A stretch of DNA of 64,000 nucleotides, from NCBI RefSeq assembly GCF_030406325.1, contig NZ_JAUEQY010000032.1, positions 62,001-126,000 on the forward strand, written 5' to 3'. Source of the stretch: Actinomadura sp. DC4. Lineage in GTDB: Bacteria; Actinomycetota; Actinomycetes; Streptosporangiales; Streptosporangiaceae. The first letter of the stretch is position 1; every line of letters begins with the position of its first letter. Positions 20,973 through 58,465 of the stretch are shown piece by piece. The notes beneath the pieces are model-generated. The model was not told the origin of the DNA. It worked only from the letters and a program-made list of their open reading frames with translations, and ran no database searches. A program made the translations under genes and the position numbers.

Positions 20973-21917
20973 TCACGAAAGCTGCGGCAGTACCTCCTCG
21001 GCGACGAGCCGGAGGTGATCCAGGTCGGTCAGGTCGAAGAGTTGAAGGTAGACGCGGTCCGCGCCGGCCTCCTTGAAGGCGTGAAGGTGCTCGGCGACCT
21101 GGGCGGGCGTCCCCGTCGCGCCATTGTCGACATGGCCGTCGAAATCGCCACCGCTCTTTGCGGCGATGGCCTTCTTCCGCTGCGCGATCTCCGCTGAGCC
21201 GGTGCCGCAGCAGAGCGTCACCACGGCGGAAAAGGTCATGTCGGCCGGGTCACGGCCGATCTCCTCGCAGGCGGAGCCGACCCTGTCGTACGCCTCGGCG
21301 CATTCCGCAGGAGACACTCCGTCGGTGTTGTATTCGGCGGCGAACCGCGCGGCCAGGGCCGGCGTGCGCTTCCGTCCCTGGCCGCCGACCAGGATCGGCG
21401 GGTGCGGTGACTGCACCGGCCGTACCAGAGCCGGGTAATCGTGGACCACGTGGTACTGCCCGTGAAACGAGTACGGCTCGCCGGGGCAGGCGGTCCACAG
21501 TCCTGTGATCAGGGCGAGCTGTTCTTCCAGGCGCTGGAACCGTTCCCGGGCCGAGGCCAGCGGGATGTCGAGCGCATGGTGTTCGCCGGCGAACGAACCT
21601 GCGCCCAGTCCGAGTTCGACCCGGCCACCGCTCATCGCGTCGACCTGGGCCACCATGAGGGCCAGGTGCCCGGGGTTGCGGAACGTGGAGCAGGTCATGA
21701 GTGTGCCCAGGCGAATCCGGGAGGTCTCCCTGGCAAGACCGGCGAGTGTTATCCACGCATCCGTCGGCCCTGGCAGGCCGTCGGCATTGCCCTCCCGCTG
21801 CAGGTGATCGGTCCGGAAATAGCCGGTGAAGCCGCATTGCTCGGCGAGCTGCGCCATCGCAAGCTGCTGGTAGTAAGTGGCTCCCTGCTGCGGTTCGGTG
21901 AGGACCCGTAACTCCAT
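20973..21917 (-). CDS. LLM-class (luciferase-like) F420-type oxidoreductase
   Basis: The protein has 314 residues from the ATG at 21917. Family features are MELRVLTEPQQGATYYQQLA, GYFRTDHLQREG, TSRIRLGTLMTCSTFRNPG, RVELGLGAGSFAGEH and PPILVGGQGRKRTPALAA. These are typical of F420-dependent members of the luciferase-like monooxygenase family. A longer frame up to 22184 lacks family similarity. The start codon lies 6 bases after a -10-like TACTCT, so the mRNA is probably leaderless. It is divergent from an aldo/keto reductase, and both may be redox tailoring enzymes of the second cluster. Confidence 0.85.
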   Translation of the reverse strand: MELRVLTEPQQGATYYQQLAMAQLAEQCGFTGYFRTDHLQREGNADGLPGPTDAWITLAGLARETSRIRLGTLMTCSTFRNPGHLALMVAQVDAMSGGRVELGLGAGSFAGEHHALDIPLASARERFQRLEEQLALITGLWTACPGEPYSFHGQYHVVHDYPALVRPVQSPHPPILVGGQGRKRTPALAARFAAEYNTDGVSPAECAEAYDRVGSACEEIGRDPADMTFSAVVTLCCGTGSAEIAQRKKAIAAKSGGDFDGHVDNGATGTPAQVAEHLHAFKEAGADRVYLQLFDLTDLDHLRLVAEEVLPQLS

Positions 21918-21953
21918 ACAAGCAGAGTAACGGTTCACCACTTGACCGTAAAG
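21918..21953 (-). promoter_or_regulatory. Promoter of the LLM oxidoreductase gene (leaderless)
   Basis: On the minus strand TTTACG, 17 bases, then TACTCT (plus-strand 21924-21929) are followed 6 bases later by the ATG at 21917. This spacing puts the transcription start at or next to the start codon, so the message would be leaderless. Confidence 0.45.
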
Positions 21954-22112
21954 AATGCGGTAAGTTCTGATACGTCGCCAGGAAACCGTCCTCGCCCGCC
22001 GGGATGGAAGAGGAGGACTTCGGCCCCGATCACCTATTCGATACACCGGAACGGCACGTCCGTTGTGGTGTTGATCGGCCTTTCCGTCCCCACTCCGAAG
22101 AAAGGTGCACCC

Positions 22113-23114
22113 ATGGAATACCGTCACCTCGGCCGAAGCGGCCTGAAAGTCAGTGAGATAATTTACGGGAACTTCCTCACGCATGGTTCACAAATCGAGG
22201 AAGACGCCGCGCTCGGCTGCGTCGCGACCGCCCTCGATGAGGGCATCACCACCTTCGACACCGCGGACGAATACGCGGAGACCAGGGCCGAGGAGGTACT
22301 CGGCAGAGCGCTGCATGGCGTACGCCGTGAATCCGTCGAGATCTGCACCAAGGTCTACTGGCCGACCGGCTCCGGGGCCAACGACCGCGGCCTTTCCCGC
22401 AAGCACATCATGGAGTCCGTGAACGCGTCGCTCAGGCGACTGCAAACCGACTATGTGGACCTTTACCAGGCTCATGCATTTGATCACGAGACGCCGCTTG
22501 AGGAGACACTCCGGGCCTTTGACGACCTGATCAGGCAGGGCAAGGTGCTCTATGTGGGCGTCTCGGAGTGGCGGGCCGAGGAGATCGCGGCGGCACTGAA
22601 GATCGCTGGCGAGCTGGGCCTGGACCGGATCGTCTCCAACCAGCCGGAGTACAACATGATCTGGCGGGTCATCGAGTCCGAGGTCGTGCCGCTGTGCGAG
22701 AGGGAAGGAATCAGCCAGATCGTCTGGGCGCCGATCGCGCAGGGCACGCTCACCGGCAAATACCTGCCCGGCGCCGCGCCGCCTGCCGGCTCACGGGCCA
22801 CCGACGACCGCGGCGGCTCAGAGTGCATTGCGGAGTATCTGACCCACGACATCCTCAGCCGAGTACAGCTGCTGCGACCGGTCGCCGAGGAGGCGGGACT
22901 GACTCTGGCCCAACTCGCCGTGGCGTGGACGCTGCAGAACCCGAATGTCGCCGGCGCGATTGTGGGTGCCAGCCGGCCTGAACAGATCCGGGAGAACGTA
23001 CGGGCCGCCGGGATCCGGCTGGACCAGGAAGCGCTGCGGCGAATAGACGAGATCTTCGCGGGGCAGATCGTCACGGACGGGGCGAAGACCGCCAGCCCGG
23101 CGGTGCGGCCCTGA
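22113..23114 (+). CDS. Aldo/keto reductase
   Basis: The protein has 333 residues from ATG 22113, with GAAAGGTG 7 bases upstream. It is a (beta/alpha)8 aldo/keto reductase of the potassium-channel beta-subunit-like branch: MEYRHLGRSGLKVSEI, TFDTADEYAETRAEEVLGRAL, CTKVYWPTG, DYVDLYQAHAFD, GVSEWRAEEI and QPEYNMIWR. The Asp-Tyr (TADEY), Lys and His (QAHAFD) catalytic residues are visible. It converges on the MFS gene with a 12-base gap. Confidence 0.9.
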   Translation: MEYRHLGRSGLKVSEIIYGNFLTHGSQIEEDAALGCVATALDEGITTFDTADEYAETRAEEVLGRALHGVRRESVEICTKVYWPTGSGANDRGLSRKHIMESVNASLRRLQTDYVDLYQAHAFDHETPLEETLRAFDDLIRQGKVLYVGVSEWRAEEIAAALKIAGELGLDRIVSNQPEYNMIWRVIESEVVPLCEREGISQIVWAPIAQGTLTGKYLPGAAPPAGSRATDDRGGSECIAEYLTHDILSRVQLLRPVAEEAGLTLAQLAVAWTLQNPNVAGAIVGASRPEQIRENVRAAGIRLDQEALRRIDEIFAGQIVTDGAKTASPAVRP

Positions 23115-23126: not shown

Positions 23127-24365
23127 TCAGACGGATGTCGGGTCCCGGCGGGACCAGTGCTGCCAGCTGAAGAGGATCATCACAGCGGCGATGGGTATCG
23201 CGCCGAACAGCATGGGGGCACGGATTCCCGCGGAGCTCGCCAGCGCGCCGCCGGCCATGGCGCCCACGACCTCCGCGCTGCGGCTGACCGTGAGGTACAG
23301 CCCGGAGACGCGGCCGAGCATCCCCGCGGGTACCTGTCGCTGTCGCATCGTTACCGCCGTGATGTTGAACAGGGCGAAGGCGCCGCTGCTGGTGAACAGC
23401 ATCACTGCGGCGACGACGACGTTGCCGGTGAGGCCGAGCCCGGCCTGGGAGAACGCCATTGCCAGCCCGGCGGTCAGCAGTGTGGGCCAGGACCCGAGGC
23501 GCCGCAGGACACGGGCTCCGGCCGCGCCGATCGCTATCCCGCCGAGTGCTCCAACGACCAGCAGCAAACCGTAGGCACTGGCCCGCTGATGCAGGATCTG
23601 GATCACGTACAGGACGAGCACCGCGAACCAGGCGGCATCCATCGCGCACACTACGGCAGAGGCGATCGTGACGTTCCGCATCTCAGAATGCCGCCACAGC
23701 CACCGCACGCCCTCGCGAAGGTCGCGGCCGATGGCCACCAGGGGTGACACCTGGTCCTGCCCGGCCGGCTTCTGTGACACCGGCTGGAAAACGCTCGGTA
23801 GCGTGAGCAACAAAAGCACGCCGATTCCCAGCGTCCCGGTGTTGATGGCGAAAGGCAGAACAGCGGCCAGGCCGAACAGCCAGCCGCCTGCCGCGGGTCC
23901 CGCCAGTTCGTTACCCACGATCTGCCCGGTGACCACCCGTGCGTTGGCCCATTCGAGGTCGGCGGGCTCGACCAGACGGGGCACGCAAATAATGGCCGCG
24001 GTCCCGCGCAGCGCCGAACCTGTCCCTGTGATGAACGCCGCCAGGTAGATAAGTCCGAGTCCGGCGTGATGCGCAAAGATTGCCACCGCCACACCCGAGA
24101 CGATGACGGCTCGTGCACTGTCCACGATCACCATGAGCAGCCGACTGTCGCTGCGGTCGACAATAACGCCGATCCCCGCGCCCATCAGCAGCCAGGGGAG
24201 TTGCTGGACAGCCGTGACCGCGGCTACCGCCGTTGGTGAGCGGGTGAGCTGGGCGGCAAGAAGGGGAAACGCCGCCAGCCGGATACCGTCGCCGAAATCG
24301 GAAAGAAAGCCCGAGAGCCAGTACCAGGAAAAAGGCTTCGATAATCTGCGTATATACGCAACCAT
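23127..24365 (-). CDS. MFS transporter, paralog of 49638-50882
   Basis: The 412-residue protein has 12 helices and starts with a membrane segment YWLSGFLSDFGDGIRLAAFPLLA that is nearly repeated in the paralog at 49.6 kb. The loop IGVIVDRSDSRLLMVIVDSARA is the MFS_3-type motif. It lies 7 bases after the stop of the ATP-grasp gene in the same operon. The pair probably exports the product or intermediates of the second cluster. Confidence 0.83.
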   Translation of the reverse strand: MVAYIRRLSKPFSWYWLSGFLSDFGDGIRLAAFPLLAAQLTRSPTAVAAVTAVQQLPWLLMGAGIGVIVDRSDSRLLMVIVDSARAVIVSGVAVAIFAHHAGLGLIYLAAFITGTGSALRGTAAIICVPRLVEPADLEWANARVVTGQIVGNELAGPAAGGWLFGLAAVLPFAINTGTLGIGVLLLLTLPSVFQPVSQKPAGQDQVSPLVAIGRDLREGVRWLWRHSEMRNVTIASAVVCAMDAAWFAVLVLYVIQILHQRASAYGLLLVVGALGGIAIGAAGARVLRRLGSWPTLLTAGLAMAFSQAGLGLTGNVVVAAVMLFTSSGAFALFNITAVTMRQRQVPAGMLGRVSGLYLTVSRSAEVVGAMAGGALASSAGIRAPMLFGAIPIAAVMILFSWQHWSRRDPTSV

Positions 24366-24372: not shown

Positions 24373-25734
24373 TTATGCCACGGCGGGTGCCCACCCGCCG
24401 CCCCATGACGCGCGGAACCGGACGCCGATTATTCCGGGTGCCGCTCCCGATCGCATCCGTACCCACATGCCGGCATATTTTCCGTCTACCTGAAAAATCC
24501 CGACGACCGGTTGCCAGGGTGAGACGGCCACCCGGCCCTCGTCGAGCGAGGGAAACAGGACGGGGCCGGGCACGATGAGGTCCTGGACGACGTGTGTCCG
24601 ATCCTCGCGGGCCGCCTGCTCGGCGGAACTCCAGAAGACCCGCGCCGGTGTGCTGACACCGAGCACGACACCCGCGCCGGAGGAGCCGATGGTCGGCTTG
24701 AGGACGAGTTCGCCGTGATCGCGGCCGCGTAGCTCATCGAGGCCGAGGCAGGGACCGTGCCGTCCGGCACCCTCGCCGTCCAGCAGCCAGGTGGGCGGGA
24801 CCAGGGAGGCCACCACCTCTGAAGCCTCCGGATCGAGCAGCCCGCGCCTCCGCGCGTCATGCAGCATCGCGAACGCCGCCTTGCCCGCCAGCCACTCATC
24901 GCGGAACGTGGATATCAAGACGGTCGCGCCGTCGGCAGCGGCCTCCAGCACCGGCATGGCCGACGCGGGATCGGTGGGGATGTCTTCGAGAAGAAAGGCG
25001 CGATGGACCACATGGATCGGACGCCGGCCGTGCCAGAGTCGTCCGTCCCGGTAGCGGACCTCTCGGTGATGGCAGAGCACCGCATCGAACCCGTGCGCCT
25101 GATAGAAGTCGGCGATTCTCCGCTGTTCTGCCTCTTGGGCGTCCCCGACTCCTTGCCAATCCATCACGGCCACGGCGGGCCGGTCGTCAATGGCAAGGCC
25201 CGCACAACGCTCGGTGGCGGCGCCGGCGAGCATGCTGAGGGGCGAAACGTTGGACAGGCGATGCTCCGCCAGGAAATCGGCGACCAGCGGGTAACGGCGG
25301 ACGACATCGTCATAGTCCTCGACGATGAGCCCGCCGGCCCCGCCGGTCAGGTTGATCTCTCCCATGCGCCAGCCGGCCGGCTCGTGCAGGAAATCGCTCC
25401 GGGCCAGCCGCACGCTCAGCGGTATGTCCTCCTCGACGAAGGGTGCGATGGCCTGCTGCACACGCAGCTCCCGTACGGCCGTCTCCAGATCGCCGAAGAC
25501 CAGCCGCGGCAGAGCGGCGAGTCCCGCGGTGAGAACGTCGGTCCCGCGGCACATCTGGGCGTGGTCATCCGCGTCGACCAGGAAAGGGACCGTAGCCACT
25601 CCCGCCGACGGAAAATACGCGCCCACGACTTTCTGCAGTTCCGCACTCAAGTCCTGAAGGACGGGCGCCGCCGCAGGCCGGCAAGCGGCCAGGTAGTCGA
25701 CCAATGCAGCGTTCAGCCGCACTTTGTTCTCCAT
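24373..25734 (-). CDS. ATP-grasp-like ligase
   Basis: The 453-residue protein has a glycine-rich nucleotide-binding segment ELVLKPTIGSSGAGVVLG, an acidic EINLTGGAGG segment and HVVQDLIVPGP. These fit the ATP-grasp fold, possibly a circularly permuted type in the glutathionylspermidine-synthase-like group. ATP-grasp ligases activate a carboxylate as acyl phosphate and join it to an amine. It sits between an isopenicillin-N-synthase-like oxygenase and an MFS gene in one operon. The substrate is unknown and the assignment to subtype is uncertain. Confidence 0.6.
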   Translation of the reverse strand: MENKVRLNAALVDYLAACRPAAAPVLQDLSAELQKVVGAYFPSAGVATVPFLVDADDHAQMCRGTDVLTAGLAALPRLVFGDLETAVRELRVQQAIAPFVEEDIPLSVRLARSDFLHEPAGWRMGEINLTGGAGGLIVEDYDDVVRRYPLVADFLAEHRLSNVSPLSMLAGAATERCAGLAIDDRPAVAVMDWQGVGDAQEAEQRRIADFYQAHGFDAVLCHHREVRYRDGRLWHGRRPIHVVHRAFLLEDIPTDPASAMPVLEAAADGATVLISTFRDEWLAGKAAFAMLHDARRRGLLDPEASEVVASLVPPTWLLDGEGAGRHGPCLGLDELRGRDHGELVLKPTIGSSGAGVVLGVSTPARVFWSSAEQAAREDRTHVVQDLIVPGPVLFPSLDEGRVAVSPWQPVVGIFQVDGKYAGMWVRMRSGAAPGIIGVRFRASWGGGWAPAVA

Positions 25735-25823: not shown

Positions 25824-26771
25824 TCAGTCCTTGGTGTCTCCCAGCCGGGCCTGCTCGTCCCCGGAGGAGAGAACCTTCTGGCCCCTCATGATGTACTCCG
25901 CCACCTGCAGCGGAGGCAGGGCCTCGCCGGTCCGCGCGACGCAGTTCGGAGCGGGTGTCACGGTCGTGTCCCGCGCGGGGTCGAGGTAGAAGATGGCCGA
26001 CTGGCGCCGCGGGATCGTCGCGCCCGCGTCGGGCGGGTACACCACCCGGTGCTCATTGGCGTGGATCACCCGGTTGGTCCACCTGGCGAGCAGGTCTCCG
26101 GGCTGGATGAACACCGCGTCCGGCGGGAGGACGACGGGCAGCCAGTCGTCCTCGGGCGTGTGCGGGCGCCGGATCTGCAGCCCACCGGGGTCCTTCCTGG
26201 CCGTGAGGATCGTGATGCCGTCTTCGTCGGTGTGCGGGCTGAACCGTACCTGCCCGGGCAGCGGCGCCTGGTTCCTCGCCGGGTAGTTGTTCGCCGCCAG
26301 GCCGCAGTAGGGCCGTTCCGTCCAGGCCGCCACATCCTCCCGGGGGAGGTCCAGCTCGGCGGCGACCATGTCGATCACCCGGGTGGACAGGTCGCGGAAC
26401 AGCAGGAAGACCGCCAGCCACACCGACCGCATCCGGGCCGGCCGCTCGGGCCACAGGCCGAAGGACTCGAACTCATATCCCTGGAACCACTCGACGAGAT
26501 CGGGAACCACCCCGGGCTCGACGAGGTCCGGGTCGCCACGGTAGATCGGCACCCATCCCTGCCACAGGCCCTCCCCGGGCGAGCGGACCTTGGCCTTCTC
26601 CTGCTCGGGCAGGTCGAAGAACTCGGCCGAGACATCGGCCAATTCCTGCTGGAGCTCCTCGGGGATCCCATGGCCGGTGAGCAATACGCACGACCAGTCG
26701 ATCAGGGCCTGGGTCAGCTCGCCGGCGCTGGTCGTGGCCAGGTCGAGGACTGGGACGGTGGCAGCTGTCAT
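25824..26771 (-). CDS. Isopenicillin N synthase-like Fe(II) oxygenase, copy 1
   Basis: The protein has 315 residues from ATG 26771, with a GGGAGAAGGG ribosome binding site. Iron ligands are His180 and Asp182 in SPHTDEDG and His241 in NEHRVVYP. The co-substrate RxS motif is Arg256-Ser258 in PRRQS, so it is probably 2-oxoglutarate-dependent. It is about 75% identical by eye to copies at 41.7 and 51.1 kb over core blocks (FFDLPEQEK, WQGWVPIYRGD). It heads the operon with the ATP-grasp and MFS genes. Confidence 0.88.
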   Translation of the reverse strand: MTAATVPVLDLATTSAGELTQALIDWSCVLLTGHGIPEELQQELADVSAEFFDLPEQEKAKVRSPGEGLWQGWVPIYRGDPDLVEPGVVPDLVEWFQGYEFESFGLWPERPARMRSVWLAVFLLFRDLSTRVIDMVAAELDLPREDVAAWTERPYCGLAANNYPARNQAPLPGQVRFSPHTDEDGITILTARKDPGGLQIRRPHTPEDDWLPVVLPPDAVFIQPGDLLARWTNRVIHANEHRVVYPPDAGATIPRRQSAIFYLDPARDTTVTPAPNCVARTGEALPPLQVAEYIMRGQKVLSSGDEQARLGDTKD

Positions 26772-27102
26772 CTTGCTGGCCCTTCTCCCTTGCCGGTGGC
26801 GAAGCGTGAACGATAGCGAGGAGCCGGCCCGGTGGCTTGTCGATGGTCCGGGCGTTAAATAGAGGCCCATTCAAGGCCGGTCTTACGAATATTTAACTTC
26901 AGTCTTACGAATGGGACAGGAGCCGTCAAGTGGCCCTGAGCTGCCGTAGCGAGGTTGCCCGATCGAACGACGCGGCATCCACCACAACGGCCGACCACTC
27001 CGGTCCTTGGCTCCGGGGAGCCAGCCGTGCATACTTGTGACTGCTGCGCGGGCGGAAGGACGCTGGATCGAGGCCCGCAAGACGGTTTGGAGGACGCCAG
27101 GA
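26772..27102. promoter_or_regulatory. Divergent control region with direct repeats, oxygenase copy 1 / carbamoyltransferase
   Basis: GTCTTACGAAT occurs at 26880-26890 and again at 26902-26912, exactly 22 bp apart, so the two copies lie on the same face of the helix. Tandem repeats with 11 or 22 bp periodicity are the binding-site pattern of SARP activators, but no SARP gene is in the window. A 13-mer CCCGGACCATCGA (minus strand, 26840-26852) recurs upstream of oxygenase copy 3 at 51017-51029. No ORF is credible in this 331-base gap. Confidence 0.5.
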
Positions 27103-28896
27103 GTGTGGATTCTCGGCCTTTCCTGCTTCCGAGATGATGCGACGGCCGCCTTGCTCAAAGATGGCGCGGTGGTGGGCATCTCGGAGGAGGAGCGTTTCCT
27201 GCGTGTGAAGCACGCTGTGGAGCGGCCATCGGGAATTTTCGTGTCCTCGCTCGGCGAATCAGAGGCGCTCGACGGCTTCGAGCTCCGCTACTTTCCGGAA
27301 CAAAGCATCAACTACCTGCTGTCCGAGGCGGAAATCGGACTCACGGACGTCGACATCGTCGCGTACGACTTTGATTTCGACCGGCGGATCAGACAGTGGG
27401 ACCGTTTCCTTCCGGTCAGTGAGTTAGCGTCCGCGCGCCAAAATGAGCAATCCGTGGCGGCGCTGCGGTACTGGCAGCGAATGCTGGCGGATTTCGCCGA
27501 GCGCTGCGGGGCTCGGCTGGAATACGTGCCGCACCACCTGGCGCACGCGAGCGGCACCGTGTTCGGCTCCGGCTACCGGGAAACAGCGTTCCTGGTAATG
27601 GACGCGCTCGGTGAACTCGAATCCAGCACGTTCGGCTACTTCGACGGCGACTTTCACGTCGCCCGGCAGGTCGCGCTTCCGCACTCGCTGGGCATTTTCT
27701 ACGCCGCGGTCACCAGTTTCCTCGGGTTCCGGCCGTTCAGCGACGAGCAGAAGACGATGGGCCTGGCCGCCTACGGTGACCCCGCGGTGTTCGCGGCCGA
27801 CTTCGGGAGGATCCTCCACCCGGCCGCTGATGGATTCGCGACCGACCCGGACGCGATGTGGGGCAGCGACGTGATCGAGATGGACCGCCCGCCCCCGCTG
27901 GCCGGTGTCCTCGGCGTGCCGGCCGGCCCGTCGGCCGCCGAGGTCTGCCGTCCTCCCTACACCCACGTCGCGGCCGCCTCGCAGCAGGTCCTGGAACGCG
28001 TCGTGAACCACCTCGCCGACCAGGCCCTGGCCACCACGCGCAGCCGGCGACTGTGCCTGGCCGGGGGAGTGGCCCTGAACTGCGCGGCCAACGGGACCCT
28101 GTTACGCAGGGGTGACATCGACGAGCTGTACGTCCAGCCACAGGCCGGTGATTCCGGGACGGCGCTGGGGGCGGCCTACTACGCCCATTTCCGCGCGTCC
28201 GGCAGCAGGCCGGAGCCGCTGCCCCACGCGTACTGGGGACCTGGTTACACCGGCGGCGAGGTCCAGGCGCTGCTCGACCGTCTGAAGCTCCCTTACCGGC
28301 GGATCGAGCAGCCCTGGGACGCGGCGGCGGAACTGCTCGCCGACGGCAACATCGTCGGCTGGTTCCAGGGCCGGTCGGAATGCGGTCCACGCGCGCTCGG
28401 CAACCGCAGCATCCTGGCTCACCCCGGGGACGTCGCGAACCGGCACCGCATGAACATGGTCGTCAAGGATCGGGAATGGTGGCGGCCGTTCGCGGCGTCG
28501 GTCCTCGACGAGCAGCGCTCGCGGTACCTGGCCATCGACACGCCATCTCCGTTCATGCTGCTCACCATCCCGCTGACCGAGCTCGGCCGGCGGGACCTGG
28601 CGGCGGCCGCGCACACCGACGGCACCACCCGGCCGCAGACGGTCTCCGCGGCGGCGAACCCGCGCTACCACCGCCTGATCCGGGCGTTCCAGGACCGGAC
28701 GGGTATCGGTGCGGTGCTGAACACCTCGCTGAACGTCAAGAGCGAGCCGATCGCCAACGACCCCGTGCACGCGATCTCCGACCTCTACACCACGGCGATG
28801 GACGCGCTGGTGATCGAGGACTTCGTGCTCGTCAAGCAGCCCTCCCCGGCAGGGCCACCCGAGCACCGGGCGGCCGGGGCCATGGTCCGGCCATGA
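27103..28896 (+). CDS. NodU/CmcH-type O-carbamoyltransferase
   Basis: The protein has 597 residues from GTG 27103, with GGAGG 9 bases upstream. The Kae1-like N-terminal domain starts VWILGLSCFRDDATAALL and holds HHLAHA at 144-149. The C-terminal domain has WFQGRSECGPRALGNRSIL, DREWWRPFAASVL and NTSLNVKSEPI. The family transfers a carbamoyl group from carbamoyl phosphate via carbamoyl-adenylate to a hydroxyl. Two TTA leucine codons (27424 and 28102) suggest bldA-type control. Its stop overlaps the start of the LanB-like gene, so carbamoylation is coupled to this operon. Confidence 0.93.
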   Translation: MWILGLSCFRDDATAALLKDGAVVGISEEERFLRVKHAVERPSGIFVSSLGESEALDGFELRYFPEQSINYLLSEAEIGLTDVDIVAYDFDFDRRIRQWDRFLPVSELASARQNEQSVAALRYWQRMLADFAERCGARLEYVPHHLAHASGTVFGSGYRETAFLVMDALGELESSTFGYFDGDFHVARQVALPHSLGIFYAAVTSFLGFRPFSDEQKTMGLAAYGDPAVFAADFGRILHPAADGFATDPDAMWGSDVIEMDRPPPLAGVLGVPAGPSAAEVCRPPYTHVAAASQQVLERVVNHLADQALATTRSRRLCLAGGVALNCAANGTLLRRGDIDELYVQPQAGDSGTALGAAYYAHFRASGSRPEPLPHAYWGPGYTGGEVQALLDRLKLPYRRIEQPWDAAAELLADGNIVGWFQGRSECGPRALGNRSILAHPGDVANRHRMNMVVKDREWWRPFAASVLDEQRSRYLAIDTPSPFMLLTIPLTELGRRDLAAAAHTDGTTRPQTVSAAANPRYHRLIRAFQDRTGIGAVLNTSLNVKSEPIANDPVHAISDLYTTAMDALVIEDFVLVKQPSPAGPPEHRAAGAMVRP

Positions 28897-51029: not shown

Positions 51030-51088
51030 TTATCCGCCGGCCGGTCTTTCGTGACCACTCACGACCGGCATGGGAGAGGACCCGCGAA

Positions 51089-52036
51089 ATGACAGCTGCC
51101 ACCGTCCCAGTCCTTGACCTGGCCACGACGAGCGCCGGCGAGCTGACCCAGGCCCTGGTCGACTGGTCGTGTGTCATGGTCAGCGGCCACGGGATCCCCG
51201 GTGATCTGCAGCAGGAGATGGCCGATGTCTCGGCGGAGTTCTTCGACCTGCCAGAGCAGGAGAAGGACAAGGTCCGCTCGCCGGGGGAGGGCCTGTGGCA
51301 GGGGTGGGTGCCGATCTACCGCGGCGACCCGGAGTTCGTCGAGCCGGGCGTGGTTCCCGATCTGACCGAGTGGTTCCAGGGGCATGACTTCGAGTCCTTC
51401 CCCCTGTGGCCCGAGCGGCCGGCGCGGATGCGGTCGGTGTACCTGGCGTTCTTCCAGGCGTGCCGTGCCCTGTCCACTCGGGTGGTCGACATGATCGCGA
51501 CCGGGCTGGACATGCCCAGAGAGGATGTCCCGGCCTGGACGGAACGGCCGTTCTGCGGCATAGCGGCGAACAACTACCCGGCGAGGAACGAAGCGCCGTT
51601 GCCCGGGCAGGTGCGGTTCAGCCCGCACACCGACGAGGACGGCATCACGATGGTCATGGCCAGGAAGGACCCTGGTGGGTTGCAGATCCGGCGCCCGCAC
51701 TCGCCCGAGGACGACTGGCTGCCCGTCGTCCTGCCGCCGGATGCGGTGTTCATCCAGGTCGGAGACCTGATGGCCAGGTGGACCAACCGGGTGATCCACG
51801 CCAATGAGCACCGGGTGGTGTACCCGCCCGACGCGGGCGCGACGATCCCGCGGCGCCAGTCGGTCATCTTCTTCCTCGACCCCGCGCGGGACGCGACCGT
51901 GACACCCGCTCCGAACTGCGTCGCGCGGTCAGGTGAGGCTCTGCCTCCGCTGCATGTCGGGGAGTACGTCTTGAACAGCCAGAAGGTGTACTCGTCCGGG
52001 GACGAGCAGGCACTGCTGGGAGACATCGAGGACTGA
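51089..52036 (+). CDS. Isopenicillin N synthase-like Fe(II) oxygenase, copy 3
   Basis: The protein has 315 residues from ATG 51089, with a GGGAGAGGA ribosome binding site; the upstream frame extension from 50996 is probably leader. The MTAATVPVLDLATTSAGELTQ start is the same as copy 1, and the SPHTDEDG, NEHRVVYPP and PRRQS motifs are intact. It is closest to copy 1. Retention of three intact copies suggests different substrates or successive oxidations. Confidence 0.9.
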   Translation: MTAATVPVLDLATTSAGELTQALVDWSCVMVSGHGIPGDLQQEMADVSAEFFDLPEQEKDKVRSPGEGLWQGWVPIYRGDPEFVEPGVVPDLTEWFQGHDFESFPLWPERPARMRSVYLAFFQACRALSTRVVDMIATGLDMPREDVPAWTERPFCGIAANNYPARNEAPLPGQVRFSPHTDEDGITMVMARKDPGGLQIRRPHSPEDDWLPVVLPPDAVFIQVGDLMARWTNRVIHANEHRVVYPPDAGATIPRRQSVIFFLDPARDATVTPAPNCVARSGEALPPLHVGEYVLNSQKVYSSGDEQALLGDIED

Positions 52037-52094: not shown

Positions 52095-53141
52095 TCAGGT
52101 GTCCCGCGAACCGATCGACCCCTGCATCGCGGCCAAGGACAGAGGGCCGATACGCCGGTCCTCGGCGCTTGACCGGCGCGCCAGCGAGCGCCCGAGATCG
52201 AGCGTGACCATGGCGTGGCGGAGCCACCTGTCGGCGCCGTCGTAGCGTGGCCGGAACGGCCGTCGGCCATGGACTGACCGGTAGTTGTCGACGAGCAGCA
52301 GATCTCCGGGTTCCAGGGCGAGGGTGGTCATCACGGCCTCCATCCGCGAGCGCAGGTCGGCGAGTCCGGCCTGCGCCCGGGTGTCACCGGGCACCGCGTC
52401 GGTGTAGGTCCAATCGAGGCACAGACCTGGTGCGGACCGGCTGCCGTTGAGCACCGGGCGCCTCACGGTCACCTCGTCGGTGATCCCCATGCCCTCCAGA
52501 TGCTCGGAGTCGACCTGAATGAGGAAGCGCGGCTCGAAGAGCACCTCTGTGTCCAGGCCGGAGAGGTCGGCATCGTCGATCGCGGCCAGCATGGTCTCGG
52601 TCCGGTCCGGGTTGCGCATGGCGATCAGGCCGAAGAAGTCACAGCGGTCCTCATCGAAGGGGTCATCGACGTGGAAGTCGAACCCTCCGAGGCTGCTGAG
52701 CCCGAGCTGGGCATCCTCCAGCCCCTCGATCGGCAGGATGTCCTCGACCAGGCTGCCCTCCTGCAGGCTCGTGAAGGAGAAGATCTCGCCCAGTTGCCCG
52801 CACACCAGGGTCAGCCAGAAATCGTGCAGGAGCGTGTCCTCGGGCCGCCACTCCCGCCAGTGTGTCGGGGTCGGCGCGGTCACCTGAAGCGGCATGCCGC
52901 GGATCAGCAGGGCCGCCGTTGAACGCCGATCGCGCAATCGGGCCAGATGATCGGTGAGGTCGGGTGGCAGGAGATCCGCCAAGCGAGGGATCGCGTTCAG
53001 ATAGACAGGGTCGTTTATCTCTGCGTATTTGCTCCCTAGCTGCCTGAGTGATTCCAGGAGGCGCGCTCCATCGGTGGCCGCGATCACATACTCTTGTACG
53101 CTTGACCTATCGTTGGAGTCGTCTAATCTCTTGGCCATCAT
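52095..53141 (-). CDS. Clavaminate synthase-like Fe(II)/2-oxoglutarate oxygenase
   Basis: The 348-residue protein belongs to the TauD/clavaminate-synthase superfamily. Iron ligands His157 and Asp159 are in FDFHVDDPF, and the C-terminal VDNYRSVHGRRPFRPRYDG gives the distal His and 2-oxoglutarate arginine region. Members of this branch hydroxylate free or carrier-bound amino acids at the beta carbon. It starts at ATG 53141 after GGGAG and converges on oxygenase copy 3. It is a paralog of the HxE-type enzyme at 55.8 kb. Confidence 0.85.
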   Translation of the reverse strand: MMAKRLDDSNDRSSVQEYVIAATDGARLLESLRQLGSKYAEINDPVYLNAIPRLADLLPPDLTDHLARLRDRRSTAALLIRGMPLQVTAPTPTHWREWRPEDTLLHDFWLTLVCGQLGEIFSFTSLQEGSLVEDILPIEGLEDAQLGLSSLGGFDFHVDDPFDEDRCDFFGLIAMRNPDRTETMLAAIDDADLSGLDTEVLFEPRFLIQVDSEHLEGMGITDEVTVRRPVLNGSRSAPGLCLDWTYTDAVPGDTRAQAGLADLRSRMEAVMTTLALEPGDLLLVDNYRSVHGRRPFRPRYDGADRWLRHAMVTLDLGRSLARRSSAEDRRIGPLSLAAMQGSIGSRDT

Positions 53142-53398: not shown

Positions 53399-54655
53399 AT
53401 GACCGAGCGAAAGGTGCCGATGGCACCGGTGCAGCTGGAGATGTGGCACACCGAGCAGACCACGAGGTCCGCGCGTGAGAACGTCTACTGTGCCTTCAAG
53501 CTGCACGGCCGTCTCGACGTCGATGCCTTAGGTCGTGCGCTGGCCGCCGTGGTGGCCCGGCACGAGCCGCTGCGTACGAGAATGGTCGTCGAGAAAGAGC
53601 CGGTCCAGCTCGTCTCCGACGCCGTGTCGTGCAGTGTGGAGCGGACCGAGATAAACAGCAAGGACGAGGCCGTCGATCTGTTCAGAGCCATTGTGAGCAC
53701 GCGGATTCCGTTGGATGCGATGCACCTGTGGCGTACCAGCCTTATGCGGCTGCCTGACGGCGACCACATCCTCGGATTCGTGTTCCATCACATCATCGTG
53801 GACGGCTGGTCCCTGTGCGTCTTCCTGGCCGACCTGGGCGAGGCCTATGAGCAGGCGGTGTCCGGTCGTGACCCCTCGCTCGCCCCGTTGCCGTACACCT
53901 ACGGCGACTACTGCCACGCAGAGCGGTACCGCTCGGACAGCGAGAAGTTCGACAAGATCCTGGCGCACTGGCGAAAGCTGCTGCCCGCCACCCTGCCCGA
54001 AGTCCGTCTGCCCCGGGACGGAGAACGGAGTGAACGGGCCGAGCCGGCTGGCGGCACGCTGGACACCTCACTCGACGCATCCGCGACGGCCCGGATCGGC
54101 GGGCGCGCTCGGGCGTCGCGCTGCACGATCTTCACGCTTATGCTCGACGCCGTCACGATGACCCTCAGCGAGCATGCGGCCACCGACGACGTCATCGTCG
54201 GCGTGCCGTTCCACAACCGGACCAAACGCCAGTTGCGTTCCCTGGTCGGCTACGTCGTCTATGACGTGCCCATGGTGCTGACCGACATCAGCAGCAGGGG
54301 CTCGGACCAGGATCGGCTGCAGTATGCCAAGTCGGTCAGCGCCGCCGCCCTGCGCTTTCCGAGCACTCGAGGGCTGATGATGCGGGAACTCTACGGGTTG
54401 ACGGATATGGAGCAGTACACCTTCATGCTCAACATCCAAGATCAGCCGGACATCGACTATGGCCTGGCCGGCATCGAAATGACCGAGATCCCGGTCTCCA
54501 ACGGAACGTTCCTCCACGGCTTCGAGCTGATGCTGCAAAGAGTCTCCGGTCAGATCGACGGGCATCTCCTGTACGACGCGGAGTTGTACTCGCGGTCACG
54601 GGCCGACGCCCTCTGGACCGATATAAAGAGCAGGTTGCTCGTGCCCCCTGGCTGA
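53399..54655 (+). CDS. Stand-alone NRPS condensation domain, copy 2
   Basis: The protein has 418 residues from ATG 53399, with GAGGAGAG upstream. The active-site motif HHIIVDG is at residues 130-136, and GVPFHNR is conserved. The first 200 bases match copy 1 almost exactly (six differences by eye) and include the TTA codon at 53528-53530; later parts diverge strongly. It has no adjacent adenylation domain, so it must use the only didomain, or another acyl donor. Confidence 0.9.
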   Translation: MTERKVPMAPVQLEMWHTEQTTRSARENVYCAFKLHGRLDVDALGRALAAVVARHEPLRTRMVVEKEPVQLVSDAVSCSVERTEINSKDEAVDLFRAIVSTRIPLDAMHLWRTSLMRLPDGDHILGFVFHHIIVDGWSLCVFLADLGEAYEQAVSGRDPSLAPLPYTYGDYCHAERYRSDSEKFDKILAHWRKLLPATLPEVRLPRDGERSERAEPAGGTLDTSLDASATARIGGRARASRCTIFTLMLDAVTMTLSEHAATDDVIVGVPFHNRTKRQLRSLVGYVVYDVPMVLTDISSRGSDQDRLQYAKSVSAAALRFPSTRGLMMRELYGLTDMEQYTFMLNIQDQPDIDYGLAGIEMTEIPVSNGTFLHGFELMLQRVSGQIDGHLLYDAELYSRSRADALWTDIKSRLLVPPG

Positions 54656-54682: not shown

Positions 54683-55786
54683 TCAGTCGAAATAGCTCTC
54701 CATGGCCCCGTCGCGGACGACGTCCAGGGTGACGCAGTGGAACCCGCCACCAAGTGTTCGCGCGTGCCGCAGCGTCAGCGGCACCGTGTCGATACCGTTC
54801 CGCTCGAGTTCTCGGATGAGTTGATGTTGTGCCGCGTCCACAATGGCCAGCTCAGGGTTGAGCATGAGGAGATTCATCCCGATCCATCGAGAGCTGAGCG
54901 GATACGGCGAGCTCGGCGCCACCGTGTTCATCGGCGGGCACCAGATGACATCCCACTTCCGTAAGACGTCGGGCAGGTTCGCGTCGTTGACCCGCTCGGG
55001 ATTGAGTAGTGCCAGCCCGGGCCGTAGAAGCGCGATCGTGCTGTCGATGTGCGTGAATTCGTAGATCTCCCGCAAGGGGTGGATGGTGAAGTCCCCATAA
55101 GCGCGAAGCGTCCGCTCCAGCCATATCTGGCCGAGCTCGTTGCCGCTCGCCGACACCTGGTAGAACAGGTCTTTCCCGCAGCGCAGCACGTTGGCCGCTT
55201 CGAATGCCGGCTCATGCTCCCCCAGAGACGGGCGTCCCTGTTCGTCGACCTGGAACAGGTCATCGGCCAGTTGCGGTCTGGGCGCGCCGATCCACGCCGA
55301 TCCGTTCAGCATGTAACGCTGGAAGAGATGCCGCATGCCGAACAGCTCGAAGTATCGGGCCCGCATCGGGCTCGCCGTCTCGATGATCACTTGTCCCACG
55401 ATCAGGGCGAGATCGCGGGGACAATAATTGTAGAACCCGTCCGTTCGCCACTGCGGCGTGCCGAACTCCTGTGAGTGATCACCAGCACCGACCTCGTGGA
55501 CCACCACGCCAAGGTTACGCAGCGCGCTGATCAGGACTTGCAGGTCCTCTTTCGTCTCTTCGATCACCCGGGCCGGGAACTCGCCGGTGAGCACGCTTTC
55601 CATCTCGCCGCGCGCCAGGTCGCCGTACAGGTTCAGCCAGGCCGACACGTCCTGCCGGGGAATCCGAGCTCCGGACGGGTTCCCGACGATCACCTCACGG
55701 AGCGGAGAGAACTCATCACACGAGTAAGCCGGCCGACCATCTCGTACGTCGAGCGAGGGTGGTCGAACCATGAAGTCATCGGTCAT
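54683..55786 (-). CDS. Glycine/inosamine-type amidinotransferase
   Basis: The 367-residue protein resembles arginine:glycine and StrB1-type amidinotransferases. It has CDEFSPLREVIVGNP at the N-terminus, YEFTHIDSTIALLRPG with the His/Asp pair, and the catalytic cysteine (Cys351) in GGGFHCVTLD. The reaction moves the amidino group from arginine to an amine, giving a guanidine and ornithine. It overlaps the 3' end of the VioC-like oxygenase gene by 11 bases. This points to a guanidino-containing product. Confidence 0.88.
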   Translation of the reverse strand: MTDDFMVRPPSLDVRDGRPAYSCDEFSPLREVIVGNPSGARIPRQDVSAWLNLYGDLARGEMESVLTGEFPARVIEETKEDLQVLISALRNLGVVVHEVGAGDHSQEFGTPQWRTDGFYNYCPRDLALIVGQVIIETASPMRARYFELFGMRHLFQRYMLNGSAWIGAPRPQLADDLFQVDEQGRPSLGEHEPAFEAANVLRCGKDLFYQVSASGNELGQIWLERTLRAYGDFTIHPLREIYEFTHIDSTIALLRPGLALLNPERVNDANLPDVLRKWDVIWCPPMNTVAPSSPYPLSSRWIGMNLLMLNPELAIVDAAQHQLIRELERNGIDTVPLTLRHARTLGGGFHCVTLDVVRDGAMESYFD

Positions 55787-56810
55787 CGTCGTCCGCGGCG
55801 CCCGATCGGATCGCGCGCAGCGCGCCCCGACGACGATGACGTGGCAGCGATGAGCACACCATGACTCTCAGCAGCCACCTGTCCGAACCATCGAACCGTG
55901 GCCGAAACGGGCTCCGGGCGTGCGCGACCCGGCGGTTGTCGACAACGAGCAGGTCACCCGGCTGGAGGACGTGGCTGACGGCGGCCGCGTCGACCGCCTC
56001 GGTGAGGCACTGGAAGGCGCTCTTCGCCTCATCGTCGGCCGGGTCGGCGGGAACCATGTAGACGGGGTCGAACCGGATCTCCGGTGCCTCGCGGGTGCCG
56101 GTCAGCACCGCCACGCCGGTCCGCGGTTCCGGATTCTCGCCGTGCGCGATGTCCGGGAGAACGGCGTACCGCGGCTGCATCAGTACCTTGCGCGCCTCAT
56201 CGGGCAGCACCAAGGCGCGGGCCGGTGCGAAAATCGTCGCTGCGGTCGGGTCCCCGCGCAGGCACAGCAGGCCGAAGTAGTCGCAGCGATCGCTGCTGAA
56301 CGCGTCCTCGACATGCCACTCCAGGAAGGAATCGCTGCCTTCGCTGGTCTGTGCGCTTTCTTTGCCCTGCGCGGCTACGACGTCCTGGACCAGGCGTCCG
56401 TCGTACAGGTCGCTGAAAGTGAACGGCTCGCCGAACATGTTCATCACGGCCATTAAGCATAAGGCGCACAAGTTCGCTGCCCCGTGTCGCGGCGAGGTGG
56501 CTGTTTCGGGAGTGGGCTCAAGGTCGTAGCCGGCGGGCAGGATGCCGCGCAGTAGCAGAACGTCATGCCGGTTGCCTTGGTTGCGGAATCGGTGGACCTG
56601 CCGGAGTACGGCTTCTGGCAGCATCGCCGCTACGACAGTGCCGAGCTCGGTGAGTTGCTCAGCGTCGTCCAGCTGTTCGATCGGGTGGCCAGACGCAAGC
56701 TGCTGTGCGAACTGCCACAATCGCTGGGAATCCGTCTCCTGAATGCGGACAACTTCGTCGGCCCCCGGAGCACCTAAGCTCACTGGGGTCATCGAACGTG
56801 CGTTGTGCAT
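55776..56810 (-). CDS. VioC/AsnO-like amino-acid beta-hydroxylase
   Basis: The protein has 344 residues from ATG 56810. It has the HxE iron-ligand variant (His166, Glu168 in EWHVEDAFSSDRCDYFGL) found in the L-arginine and L-asparagine beta-hydroxylases VioC, OrfP and AsnO, rather than the HxD form. The C-terminal VDNRRVAHARSPFRPRFDG supplies the distal ligand. Given the neighbouring amidinotransferase, arginine or a guanidino amino acid is the most likely substrate (inference). The start is 7 bases after TACAAT, so the transcript is probably leaderless. Confidence 0.85.
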   Translation of the reverse strand: MHNARSMTPVSLGAPGADEVVRIQETDSQRLWQFAQQLASGHPIEQLDDAEQLTELGTVVAAMLPEAVLRQVHRFRNQGNRHDVLLLRGILPAGYDLEPTPETATSPRHGAANLCALCLMAVMNMFGEPFTFSDLYDGRLVQDVVAAQGKESAQTSEGSDSFLEWHVEDAFSSDRCDYFGLLCLRGDPTAATIFAPARALVLPDEARKVLMQPRYAVLPDIAHGENPEPRTGVAVLTGTREAPEIRFDPVYMVPADPADDEAKSAFQCLTEAVDAAAVSHVLQPGDLLVVDNRRVAHARSPFRPRFDGSDRWLLRVMVCSSLPRHRRRGALRAIRSGAADDDDR

Positions 56811-57136
56811 GTACCTTATTGTATCAGTCAGTTGACCGATAACCACCCTTGCTGAAAGCAAATTCCTCTGCGAAGCTGCACACATCCAGGGTCGGCCGTC
56901 GAAGGAAGGCGTTGCATTAAAGCCCTCTGCGACTCGCCGTTATGGAATCCGAATGTCGCCGCGACGAGCGCGGGCGCCGGCCGGTCTGAACAAATACGTG
57001 AGAACCCGCAGGTGCCCGGCTGGATCCGGTGGTGCTGCGGCGATTAGGCGGGCTTTCCAGGCTACCGATCCGGCGAAAACATCTGTCAGAGACAACGGAC
57101 GATCAAGGCATTAATGCGCATGGTACTATCCCGAAC
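56811..57136. promoter_or_regulatory. Divergent leaderless promoters, VioC-like / class III aminotransferase
   Basis: On the minus strand TACAAT (56818-56823) lies 7 bases before the ATG at 56810. On the plus strand the extended -10 TGGTACTAT (57121-57129) lies 7 bases before the GTG at 57137. Both spacings place transcription start at the start codon. The rest of this 326-base gap has no credible ORF. Confidence 0.55.
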
Positions 57137-58465
57137 GTGACGGCGCTAGGTGACATTGACCGGAACCGGATTCGAGACCTACACGCACATGAGCTGGCAC
57201 GATTCCGGAAGGAGCGCCCCAGGTCCGTGGCCATGATCGGCCGCGCGCGGGGGCACATGCCGGGCGGGGTGCCGATGGTGTGGATGGCCTATGACAACGA
57301 TCTGCCGATCTACATCGATCATGGCCAGGGCGCGAGTTTTACCGACGTGGACGGGTTCACCTACGTGGACTTCAATGCCTCGGGTCTGGCGATGTTCTGC
57401 GGGCACGCGAATCCGCAGATCGTGGCCGCCGTCCAGGCGCAGGCCGCCCGGTCCACCCAGTTCCAACTGCCGACCCAGGCCTCGGTCGAGGTGGCCGAGG
57501 AACTGGCCCGCCGCTATCCCGTCCCGCTGTGGCAGTTCACGCTGGCGGCGACGCAGGCCAACACCGAAGTCATCAGGCTGGCCCGGGCCGCGACCGGACG
57601 GGACGTCATCGTGTTGTTCCAGGGCCACTACCACGGCAACTTCGACGAGGGCCGGGTGGATCTGGAGGACGGCCGGGTCACGGCGATCCAGCGCGGCCTG
57701 GCCAAGGACGTCGCCGGCCGCGTACGGATCGCTCAGTTCAATGACCCCGACACGCTGCGCCGGGCACTCGAGCCCGGCGACGTCGCCCTGGTGCTGACCG
57801 AGCCGGCCATGACCAACGCCAACCTGCTGCTGCCCGAGCCCGGCTGGCACGAGGAACTCCGTGGCCTGACCCGCCAGTACGGCACGTTGCTGGCCATCGA
57901 CGAGACCCACAGCCATATCGTCGGGCCCGGCGGGGCGACCGCGCTGTGGGGACTGCAGCCCGACATGGTCACGATCGGCAAGGCGGTGGCCGGCGGCCTG
58001 CCGATGGGCGTCTACGGGGTCACCGCCGAGCTGGGCGAGCAACTGGAGGGGGAGCGCAACCTCGCGACCGGTGGCACCTTGTTCGGAAACCCGCTGTCCG
58101 CGGCTGCGGCGAAGGCGGCGCTGACCGAGGTTCTGACCCCCGACGCATATGCGCACACCACCGCCCTGGGCAGCGAACTCTCCGACGGGATCGAGCAGGC
58201 CATCCGGTCGGCGGGCCTGCCCTGGACGGTGATCCGGTTCGGCCCCCGGTCCGGGCAGTGGTTCGGACCGAAGCCCCGAACCGGATCCGAGGCGCACGCG
58301 CAGGCCGACGGCGAACTGAACCGCCTCACGCGTATCTGGCTGGCCAATAGGGGCGTGTGGGAAGCGCTACCGGACGCCGGGCCCGCCGTCTCCGTTCCCT
58401 CGACCAGCGCGGACGTGGCGCGGTATCTGGAGGCCTATAACGAGCTGCTCGCCCAGCTCAAGTGA
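57137..58465 (+). CDS. Class III PLP aminotransferase (glutamate-semialdehyde aminomutase-like)
   Basis: The protein has 442 residues from GTG 57137. Features are FTDVDGFTYVDFNASGLAMFCGH, FQGHYHGNFDEG, LLAIDETHSH (Asp255) and the PLP lysine Lys282 in TIGKAVAGGLPMG. This branch includes glutamate-1-semialdehyde aminomutase and amino-mutase or transaminase relatives in antibiotic pathways. It may supply a diamino acid for amidination. It is the last recognisable gene of the second cluster before the IS remnants. Confidence 0.88.
   Translation: MTALGDIDRNRIRDLHAHELARFRKERPRSVAMIGRARGHMPGGVPMVWMAYDNDLPIYIDHGQGASFTDVDGFTYVDFNASGLAMFCGHANPQIVAAVQAQAARSTQFQLPTQASVEVAEELARRYPVPLWQFTLAATQANTEVIRLARAATGRDVIVLFQGHYHGNFDEGRVDLEDGRVTAIQRGLAKDVAGRVRIAQFNDPDTLRRALEPGDVALVLTEPAMTNANLLLPEPGWHEELRGLTRQYGTLLAIDETHSHIVGPGGATALWGLQPDMVTIGKAVAGGLPMGVYGVTAELGEQLEGERNLATGGTLFGNPLSAAAAKAALTEVLTPDAYAHTTALGSELSDGIEQAIRSAGLPWTVIRFGPRSGQWFGPKPRTGSEAHAQADGELNRLTRIWLANRGVWEALPDAGPAVSVPSTSADVARYLEAYNELLAQLK

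Follow-up and report, generated by a model that had tools for sequence, protein, structure and literature searches.

A candidate pathway to an arginine-derived pseudopeptide in Actinomadura sp. DC4 with several kinds of amide-forming enzyme

Known peptide aminoacyl-tRNA ligases (PEARLs) work on scaffold peptides (PMC11962472, PMC12945691), and residues important in TglB and BhaBC-Trp have been reported (PMC11962472). LanB-like proteins that are linked to nonribosomal peptide synthetases (NRPSs) and lack precursor genes have been described as a group; one of them, SnaE, was tested, and it extends a non-ribosomal product at its free carboxylate in the threopeptin pathway (PMC11212132). About two thousand clusters encoding NRPSs or polyketide synthases (PKSs) also encode proteins annotated as lantibiotic dehydratases (PMC11212132). 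FemABX-like transferases have natural-product precedents, BD-12 among them (PMC12945691), and an N-terminal glutamate and consecutive serines are reported for GntC, OrfR, and VioD (PMC10367076). The present study concerns positions 20973-58465 of a 64,000-nucleotide stretch (the window) of the 10.67 Mb genome of Actinomadura sp. DC4, which is assembled in 101 contigs. The region encodes an adenylation-thiolation (A-T) didomain, free condensation (C) domains, ATP-grasp proteins, a stand-alone LanB-like protein and a set of arginine-type enzymes, and most of it recurs in Actinophytocola algeriensis. The shared core is read here, with a probability of about 0.6, as a single pathway unit that makes a small and basic pseudopeptide derived from arginine, of which we infer the substrates, the order of steps, and the product.

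A core shared with Actinophytocola algeriensis

Twenty-seven likely genes, all of them open frames, were called in the region from open reading frames (ORFs), codon-position GC content and domain matches, and all were covered by a Pfam scan (Table 1). The A. algeriensis locus was found on contig 10 by a genome-collection scan using the two GntC-like proteins of the window (65% identity), and the 100 kb around it were taken for comparison. Twenty-two of the 27 genes match at 58-91% identity onto 17 A. algeriensis genes lying within about 24 kb (170243-194156). Because so many of the genes match one compact cluster, the core appears to be a single co-inherited biosynthetic unit that contains three amide chemistries, namely the carrier-based A-T and C domains, a probable circularly permuted ATP-grasp ligase, and the LanB/PEARL-like protein. 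The genes for the kinase-like protein, the FemAB-like transferase, the L-amino-acid-ligase (LAL) type ATP-grasp protein, and the class III pyridoxal-phosphate (PLP) enzyme have no match in the 100 kb, and the major facilitator superfamily (MFS) exporter MFSb has only a paralogous one (33%). Since they are absent from the A. algeriensis cluster, the FemAB-like and LAL genes seem to be additions to the core in the window strain; in the rest of the A. algeriensis genome, the nearest relatives share 30 and 33% identity with them, respectively.

Sixteen flanking window genes were tested, of which 15 have no match in the 100 kb and one, an ABC ATPase, finds generic matches of 30-33%. At the DNA level the two loci share eighteen aligned stretches of 0.9-5.7 kb with 68-88% identity. 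The gaps between the A. algeriensis core genes are at most 144 bases with the first ORF bounds and at most 170 with tighter starts. The GC content of the A. algeriensis cluster is 0.671, compared to 0.730 and 0.707 in its flanks, while the contrast is weak in the window (0.676 vs 0.703 to the left and 0.679 to the right). A lower GC content than in the flanks is consistent with transfer of the block, but is not proof of it.

The initial annotation had proposed a single cluster with at least four amide-forming chemistries, to be compared with related genomes for co-conservation, and a short peptide made partly on a carrier, partly by ATP-grasp and partly from aminoacyl-tRNA. Three of these chemistries lie in the core and up to five in the window, and the A-T and C domains, the permuted ATP-grasp protein, the LanB-like protein, and the carbamoyl and amidino transfer genes are found together in A. 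algeriensis as well. The proposal does not extend in the same way to the FemAB-like and LAL genes, which fall outside the shared unit, nor is co-conservation seen for the kinase-like gene, the class III PLP gene, or MFSb.

Close relatives of the cluster are few. The GntC-like family was found in the genome of DC4 alone among eight genomes of the genus, 297 of the order, and 341 of the family, in pattern scans that may miss distant relatives. A scan with an alignment of both GntC-like proteins gave three loci from 118 pattern stretches, one at 65% and two at 26% identity, while a genome scan with the PLP query P0008 alone gave none from 22 stretches, and a plasmid search with P0008 returned 22 records, all under 60% identity. 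With the LanB-like profile, eight of 394 genomes of the class match at E ≤ 1e-15, and all matches except the strain's own full-length copy cover 115-278 C-terminal positions.

The LanB-like protein matches the N-terminal LanB model (PF04738) alone, with 62.6 bits in the window and 65.4 in A. algeriensis against a cut-off of 28; neither protein matches the elimination domain PF14028. Judged by their window counterparts, none of the 17 core genes encodes an elimination domain; in the window, a full LanB with PF14028 belongs to the separate lanthipeptide cluster next door. Six positions (R15, Y174, R177, D503, E769, and R771) are kept in the LanB-like proteins of the window, of A. algeriensis and of a third locus, L044, described below. 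They comprise the arginine in R-x-x-G-F-P, a Tyr-x-x-Arg pair, an aspartate and a C-terminal Glu-x-Arg, and they were placed by alignment and spacing through other LanB-like proteins and not through TglB itself; R429 of BhaBC-Trp is not among them. Three stand-alone LanB-like proteins from a Kitasatospora plasmid share these positions, except that Y174 is a phenylalanine in one of them. A rough alignment, silent on Glu-x-Arg, indicates that the G-F-P stretch and the aspartate are missing from the full LanB of the neighboring cluster. The LanB-like protein found no match among PDB sequences, whether searched singly or paired. Because it keeps six positions reported for PEARLs, it probably acts as a tRNA-dependent ligase like SnaE, and SnaE is the closest model because no precursor gene was found in the core. 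A gene for a scaffold peptide is likewise not found in SnaE-type clusters (PMC11212132).

Both free C domains keep the HHxxxDG motif (FHHIVVDG in Ca and FHHIIVDG in Cb). The code of the A-domain was read by eye at what we take to be the GrsA positions, and the first four are D-P-R-H, which is too little to name a substrate. For such a code aminomalonate has been reported, and 2-aminoadipate has been predicted in another paper (PMC12283262, PMC3547906). The protein encoded at 24373-25734 (P0001) alone has no Pfam match, and a PDB sequence search with it gave three matches, all with E above 0.5. A family profile was built from six members, i.e., P0001, the A. algeriensis copy and relatives in four Streptomyces plasmids. 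This profile finds PDB entry 9cjn, "Ligase Cp1B," at E 1.4e-4 as the sole structure below E 0.1. Two of the six members, the window protein not being one of them, each match CP_ATPgrasp_2 and CP_ATPgrasp_1 (best E 5.4e-4). The gene thus encodes a probable circularly permuted ATP-grasp amide ligase. The accessory FemAB-like protein passes the Pfam FemAB-like cut-off, and its use of tRNA is putative.

Arginine-type enzymes and a proposed pathway

Two GntD/VioC-like hydroxylases, two GntC/VioD-like PLP enzymes, and three DIOX_N-type 2-oxoglutarate (2OG) and iron-dependent oxygenases point to a modified, perhaps cyclised, arginine. Hydroxylases a and b score 276.7 and 234.7 bits with the GntD model (cut-off 345) and 256.9 and 198.1 with the VioC model (cut-off 418.6). 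The GntC-like proteins score 89.9 and 113.3 with the GntC model (cut-off 415) and 47.3 and 65.7 with the VioD model (cut-off 390.9). The assignments would therefore denote family similarity only, and since the scores fall below the equivalog cut-offs, the substrates may not be arginine or hydroxyarginine. E48, S65, and S66, assigned by spacing, are invariant in GntCa, GntCb, and the A. algeriensis PLP protein, and this glutamate and serine pair have about the spacing reported for GntC, OrfR, and VioD. The amidinotransferase has no Pfam match, and its residues 24-365 align to the inosamine-phosphate amidinotransferase 1bwd (E 2.9e-106). Its GGGFHC and THID motifs presumably contain the catalytic cysteine and histidine. 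All active-site motifs that were checked in the region are intact, except for the lysine of one duplicate PLP enzyme, GntCa.

In the pathway proposed here, the VioC/GntD-like oxygenases would hydroxylate arginine or a derivative of it, and a GntC/VioD-like PLP enzyme would then eliminate the hydroxyl and close a cyclic guanidine like that of capreomycidine or enduracididine. The oxidation state may be tuned by the third 2OG enzyme together with the F420-type enzyme and the aldo-keto reductase. The StrB1-like enzyme is predicted to transfer an amidino group from arginine to an amine on a different building block, and a carbamoyl group would be placed onto a hydroxyl by the NodU/CmcH-type enzyme. 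One building block would be loaded as a thioester by the A-T didomain and handed to a soluble amine by a free C domain, which would permit release without a thioesterase. A second amide could be formed via an acyl phosphate by the permuted ATP-grasp ligase. The LanB-like enzyme, acting as a PEARL, would phosphorylate the free carboxylate of the short product and couple aminoacyl-tRNA to it, the tRNA then being hydrolysed off. Opp and MFS proteins may move the product or its breakdown peptides, and the added LAL, FemAB-like, exporter, and kinase-like genes may serve in host protection and in lengthening the product at its amino end.

Several observations weigh against this proposal. The substrate of the A-domain is not readable with confidence, the permuted ATP-grasp assignment consists of weak profile matches, and structure predictions gave a mean pLDDT (predicted local distance difference test) of 33.5 for P0001 and 32.4 for the LanB-like pair. 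Neither hydroxylase reaches the VioC or GntD cut-off and neither PLP protein that of GntC or VioD, the PEARL positions were placed through proteins other than TglB, and the C domains lack the ureido signature EHHxxHDG of the sna cluster. The lost lysine of GntCa is a possible sign of decay in the window copy. In addition, the cluster is found in one other genome only, and its conservation is therefore a single comparison.

The gene content is listed in Table 1. It confirms all parts of the inventory in the initial annotation, among them the A-T didomain with two free C domains, the FemAB/GNAT-like transferase, and the carbamoyl and amidino transfer enzymes. Of its two ATP-grasp proteins, the LAL is found as stated and the second is probable by its family profile. 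What had been called a PEARL-like LanB fragment is indeed PEARL-like, but it is a stand-alone protein of 783 residues and no fragment. As the initial annotation had also noted, neither a PKS, a thioesterase nor a multimodular NRPS is found among the 27 Pfam-scanned genes. Absent from that annotation were the arginine-type enzymes, which are the strongest chemical hint, the Opp importer, the MFS genes, and the kinase-like gene of the aminoglycoside phosphotransferase (APH) type. Rfam and tRNA scans of the window gave no match.

Table 1. Genes at 20973-58465 and in the lanthipeptide cluster to the left (percentages are identities to A. algeriensis proteins; "no match" refers to the 100 kb A. algeriensis stretch)
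Feature	Position	Strand	Evidence and remarks
LLM-class (luciferase-like, F420 type) oxidoreductase	20973-22184	-	Bac_luciferase E 4.4e-45; TIGR03560 above cut-off; 81.6% over residues 84-403; true start probably further in
Aldo-keto reductase	21942-23114	+	Aldo_ket_red E 2.6e-74; 91.2%; ORF bounds, true start downstream
MFS exporter MFSa	23127-24365	-	MFS_3/MFS_1; 76.7%
Probable circularly permuted ATP-grasp amide ligase (P0001)	24373-25734	-	Family profile; 76.8%
2OG-Fe(II) oxygenase, DIOX_N type, copy a	25824-26870	-	HTD...H...RxS motif; 84.7%
O-carbamoyltransferase, NodU/CmcH type	27007-28896	+	Carbam_trans_C E 6.9e-62; Carbam_trans_N E 4.4e-41; 84.8%
Stand-alone LanB-like, PEARL-type ligase (P0009), 783 residues	28893-31244	+	Lant_dehydr_N 62.6 bits (cut-off 28); 84%
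GntC/VioD-like PLP enzyme, copy a (GntCa)	31163-32677	+	Likely start ~31241; cofactor lysine changed to Arg (CGA at 32018); 80.9%
OppC-type permease	32674-33588	-	64.6%
OppB-type permease	33615-34568	-	72.1%
OppA-type solute-binding protein	34636-36564	-	61.0%
APH-like kinase, accessory	37027-37944	+	Assigned by eye (HGDWESQN ... DWD); no Pfam match; no match
MFS exporter MFSb, accessory	37963-39252	-	Only 33% to an MFS protein
FemAB-like transferase (P0004), accessory	39233-40432	-	FemAB_like 35.6 bits (cut-off 27); Acetyltransf_6 37.0 (cut-off 22); no match
LAL-type ATP-grasp protein, accessory	~40501-41724	+	ATP-grasp_4 E 5.4e-11; LAL_C2 E 7.2e-4, below its cut-off; no match
2OG-Fe(II) oxygenase, DIOX_N type, copy b	41746-42693	-	73.6%
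Free condensation domain Ca	42710-44023	-	FHHIVVDG; E 2.6e-52; 67.9%
A-T didomain	44038-45879	-	AMP-binding E 1.3e-57; PP-binding E 3.8e-15; GGDS and NGK motifs; 73.9%
OppDF fused ATPase	46020-48092	+	66.6%
GntC/VioD-like PLP enzyme, copy b (GntCb)	48105-49631	+	Lysine intact (AAG codon at 48939); 64.8%
MFS exporter MFSc	49638-50882	-	58.0%
2OG-Fe(II) oxygenase, DIOX_N type, copy c	50996-52036	+	76.4%
VioC/GntD-like arginine-type hydroxylase a	52095-53141	-	GntD model 276.7 bits, VioC model 256.9; nearest PDB 6daw (CmnC, VioC-type); 73.4%
Free condensation domain Cb	53399-54655	+	FHHIIVDG; E 8.4e-56; 71.3%
StrB1-like amidinotransferase (P0002)	54683-55786	-	PDB 1bwd E 2.9e-106; GGGFHC and THID motifs; 82.0%
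VioC/GntD-like hydroxylase b	55776-56885	-	GntD model 234.7 bits, below cut-off; nearest PDB 6daw; 84.4%
Class III PLP enzyme, PRK07046 family	57029-58465	+	426.4 bits (cut-off 425); cluster membership uncertain; no match
Lanthipeptide LanC	9645-10943
Full LanB, both domains	10940-14101
Precursor-like ORF, 72 residues	14120-14338		FDLDI leader box, Cys/Ser/Thr-rich tail; between the LanB and LanC-like genes
Second LanC-like protein	14329-15450

Alternative readings and related loci

The strongest alternative, which we favor less than the single unit, is an overlap of two pathways, in which the guanidine pathway of 17 genes surrounds an independent insert at 37027-41724 whose kinase-like, MFS, FemAB-like, and LAL genes would make their own di- or tripeptide. 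The four genes are contiguous, and three of them are unmatched and the fourth is paralogous in the A. algeriensis stretch. Relatives of the LAL were found at E ≤ 1e-35 in five of the 341 family genomes, DC4 included, so the module is uncommon, which speaks against an independent unit; the neighborhoods of three of the four other relatives were examined. In one of these (L045) the LAL adjoins a partial FemAB-like match, and in another (L043; LAL identity 48%) it shares a stretch of 8 kb with genes for a free C domain, an A-T didomain and a FemAB-like protein. However, in L043 and L044 the LAL has the same partners as in the window, i.e., A-T and C domains in the former and a carrier-like gene, a C domain, and a PEARL-like LanB in the latter. 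The insert also sits between core genes, those for OppA and a 2OG oxygenase, and not outside the core.

The L044 locus (9372-19164) holds within 10 kb the LAL (44%), a PhyH gene, the carrier-like gene (20.7 bits, cut-off 20.8), a PALP gene, the free C domain, and the PEARL-like LanB, and can be regarded as a second mixed-ligase cluster. The L043 and L044 neighborhoods together suggest an exchange of such ligases, like parts, between clusters of one family. Among the Streptomyces plasmid relatives of the permuted ATP-grasp protein, a second ATP-grasp gene is found nearby in L027 and L028 (by Pfam) and in L029 and L030 (by annotation). L030 also holds a FemAB-like match, and L027 a VioC-like oxygenase and an OppA-type protein. 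The L027 stretch (1193-16335), from a plasmid of Streptomyces sp. BHT-5-2, brings together genes for a lysine/ornithine N-oxygenase, a cupin, a MetRS-like protein, an LAL, the OppA-type protein, the VioC-like oxygenase, and the permuted ATP-grasp protein. We take the N-oxygenase, cupin, and MetRS-like genes to be of the hydrazine type. On a plasmid of Kitasatospora sp. NBC_00039 (L026, 10798-23815), three annotated lantibiotic dehydratase genes lie in a run of hypothetical proteins.

As such ligases are combined repeatedly across loci, a joint pathway becomes more plausible for the window insert, though it is unproven. In its fullest form all five amide chemistries would act on one molecule, with the thioester and free C route, the permuted ATP-grasp ligase, and the LAL joined by the PEARL at the carboxyl end and the FemAB-like enzyme at the amino end. 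The molecule would then grow both ways from an arginine-derived cyclic guanidine core, without a modular assembly line or a thioesterase. We consider this joint claim doubtful.

An unlikely alternative is that two related clusters have fused in the window into a decaying or rearranged copy that makes nothing, although the A. algeriensis copy works. Such a fusion could account for the extra copies of four gene types: the DIOX genes number three in the window, and the C, GntC-like, and core-type MFS genes two each, against a single gene of each type in A. algeriensis. GntCa shares 81.5% identity with its A. algeriensis counterpart and 61.8% with GntCb, so that the copies appear to be old or derived from another cluster. 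The cofactor lysine of GntCa has been lost to arginine through a CGA codon, two base changes away from AAG, and transposase-like remnants are seen at the right border of the cluster (58689-59337), as weak rve_3 matches in two frames and below cut-off. On the other hand, GntCb and the A. algeriensis protein retain the lysine, the HHxxxDG motif is present in both C domains and the metal motif in all three DIOX copies, and all 27 genes are open.

A further alternative, which we judge to be quite improbable, is that the LanB-like protein is an ordinary PEARL working on a ribosomal scaffold that is encoded elsewhere, or is too short or diverged to be seen, the A-T and C domains then acting on the excised amino acid. 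Scaffold peptides are what the known PEARLs use, and the PEARL residues are kept here. A precursor was sought among 37 small ORFs of 20-150 codons, each lying at least half inside a gap or border of the A. algeriensis core, and a ribosomal precursor inside the core was rejected for want of a convincing, conserved free ORF, although a very short or diverged peptide would escape such a search. A tblastn search of the window matched five of the 37 at E ≤ 0.01, of which four overrun assigned genes at their ends and the fifth, a border ORF, has its match beyond the cluster. A sixth, an ORF of 33 residues upstream of the A. algeriensis carbamoyltransferase gene (186693-186794), has a weak match of 17 residues at 26886-26936 of the window (E 0.035). 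Because the window frame has no start codon and ends early, the match looks like conserved non-coding DNA. The existence of a precursor-less, NRPS-linked LanB-like group, with SnaE tested, also argues against a scaffold (PMC11212132). Where the 2OG and carbamoyltransferase genes diverge, the gap between them (186646-186815 in A. algeriensis, 26871-27006 in the window) contains a short conserved DNA block that forms no conserved ORF and is perhaps a regulatory site.

Directly to the left of the region lies an unrelated class I lanthipeptide cluster (9645-20908), which besides the genes in Table 1 holds ABC transporter, JmjC, HExxH-type beta-hydroxylase, and MFS genes. With its full LanB, two LanC-like genes and precursor-like ORF, it could in principle employ the LanB-like protein as a glutamylation partner, but this is very improbable, as it already has a two-domain dehydratase and none of its genes is specifically matched in the A. 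algeriensis stretch, where the LanB-like gene is 84% identical; membership of the LanB-like gene in that cluster was rejected on this comparison.

Relation to described systems

Free C and A-T genes are part of the viomycin and capreomycin layout, as are carbamoyl and kinase-like genes, and all of these occur in the window too, while a multimodular NRPS is a defining feature of tuberactinomycin clusters. The families of the arginine hydroxylase and the PLP cyclase, to which VioC, VioD, GntC, and OrfR belong, provide a further likeness (PMC10367076). The window differs in having no multimodular NRPS core and in its carbamoyltransferase, which is of the NodU/CmcH type. Its PLP proteins have about 500 residues and are 26-36% identical, over part of their length, to matches that are not orthologous. 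For BD-12, which is of the streptothricin type, arginine cyclisation chemistry stands beside a FemAB-like ligase, and sugar and glycosyltransferase genes are a defining feature of streptothricin-type clusters. The likeness to BD-12 lies in its FemABX-like Orf11, a tRNA-dependent ligase (PMC12945691). No glycosyltransferase or amino-sugar gene is matched among the 27 window genes, and the FemAB-like gene is accessory. The E-64 ligase Cp1B, which was found by the family profile of the permuted ATP-grasp protein, is a very distant relative from a fungal pathway without an NRPS (PMC12568646).

The PEARLs that act on scaffolds, of the TglB and BhaBC types, share with the core protein a LanB N-domain without the elimination domain, residues of the R10/E542/E801/R803 type (TglB numbering) and the Tyr-x-x-Arg pair, as judged by alignment and spacing (PMC11962472, PMC12945691). 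They differ in that no scaffold gene was found in the window core and in that the partners there are NRPS and ATP-grasp proteins.

The closest likeness is to the sna cluster for threopeptin in Stackebrandtia nassauensis, in which NRPS domains are combined with a stand-alone LanB-like protein and arginine chemistry and no precursor peptide is described; there the LanB-like protein presumably attaches an amino acid at a free carboxylate (PMC11212132). Besides a PKS and a thioesterase, the sna cluster has a multidomain NRPS whose ureido-forming C domain carries EHHxxHDG, where the window has the A-T didomain and free C domains with FHHI(V/I)VDG. An sna-like identity was therefore rejected for lack of the ureido motif and a PKS, as were a viomycin-like one for lack of a multimodular NRPS in the region and a streptothricin/BD-12-like one for lack of sugar genes among the 27; a saskemycin-like identity was rejected together with these.

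Searches of the open-access literature, to which this statement is limited, found no described pathway with the whole gene set, in line with the initial annotation. The principle of combining an NRPS with a PEARL is, however, already in print for sna and threopeptin (PMC11212132). Beyond sna, the window adds ATP-grasp ligation, amidino and carbamoyl transfer, and the arginine-type enzymes. The product of the cluster is probably a new guanidine-rich peptide, and the 17-gene cluster would allow a test of how carrier-based, ATP-grasp, and tRNA-dependent ligation share one substrate.

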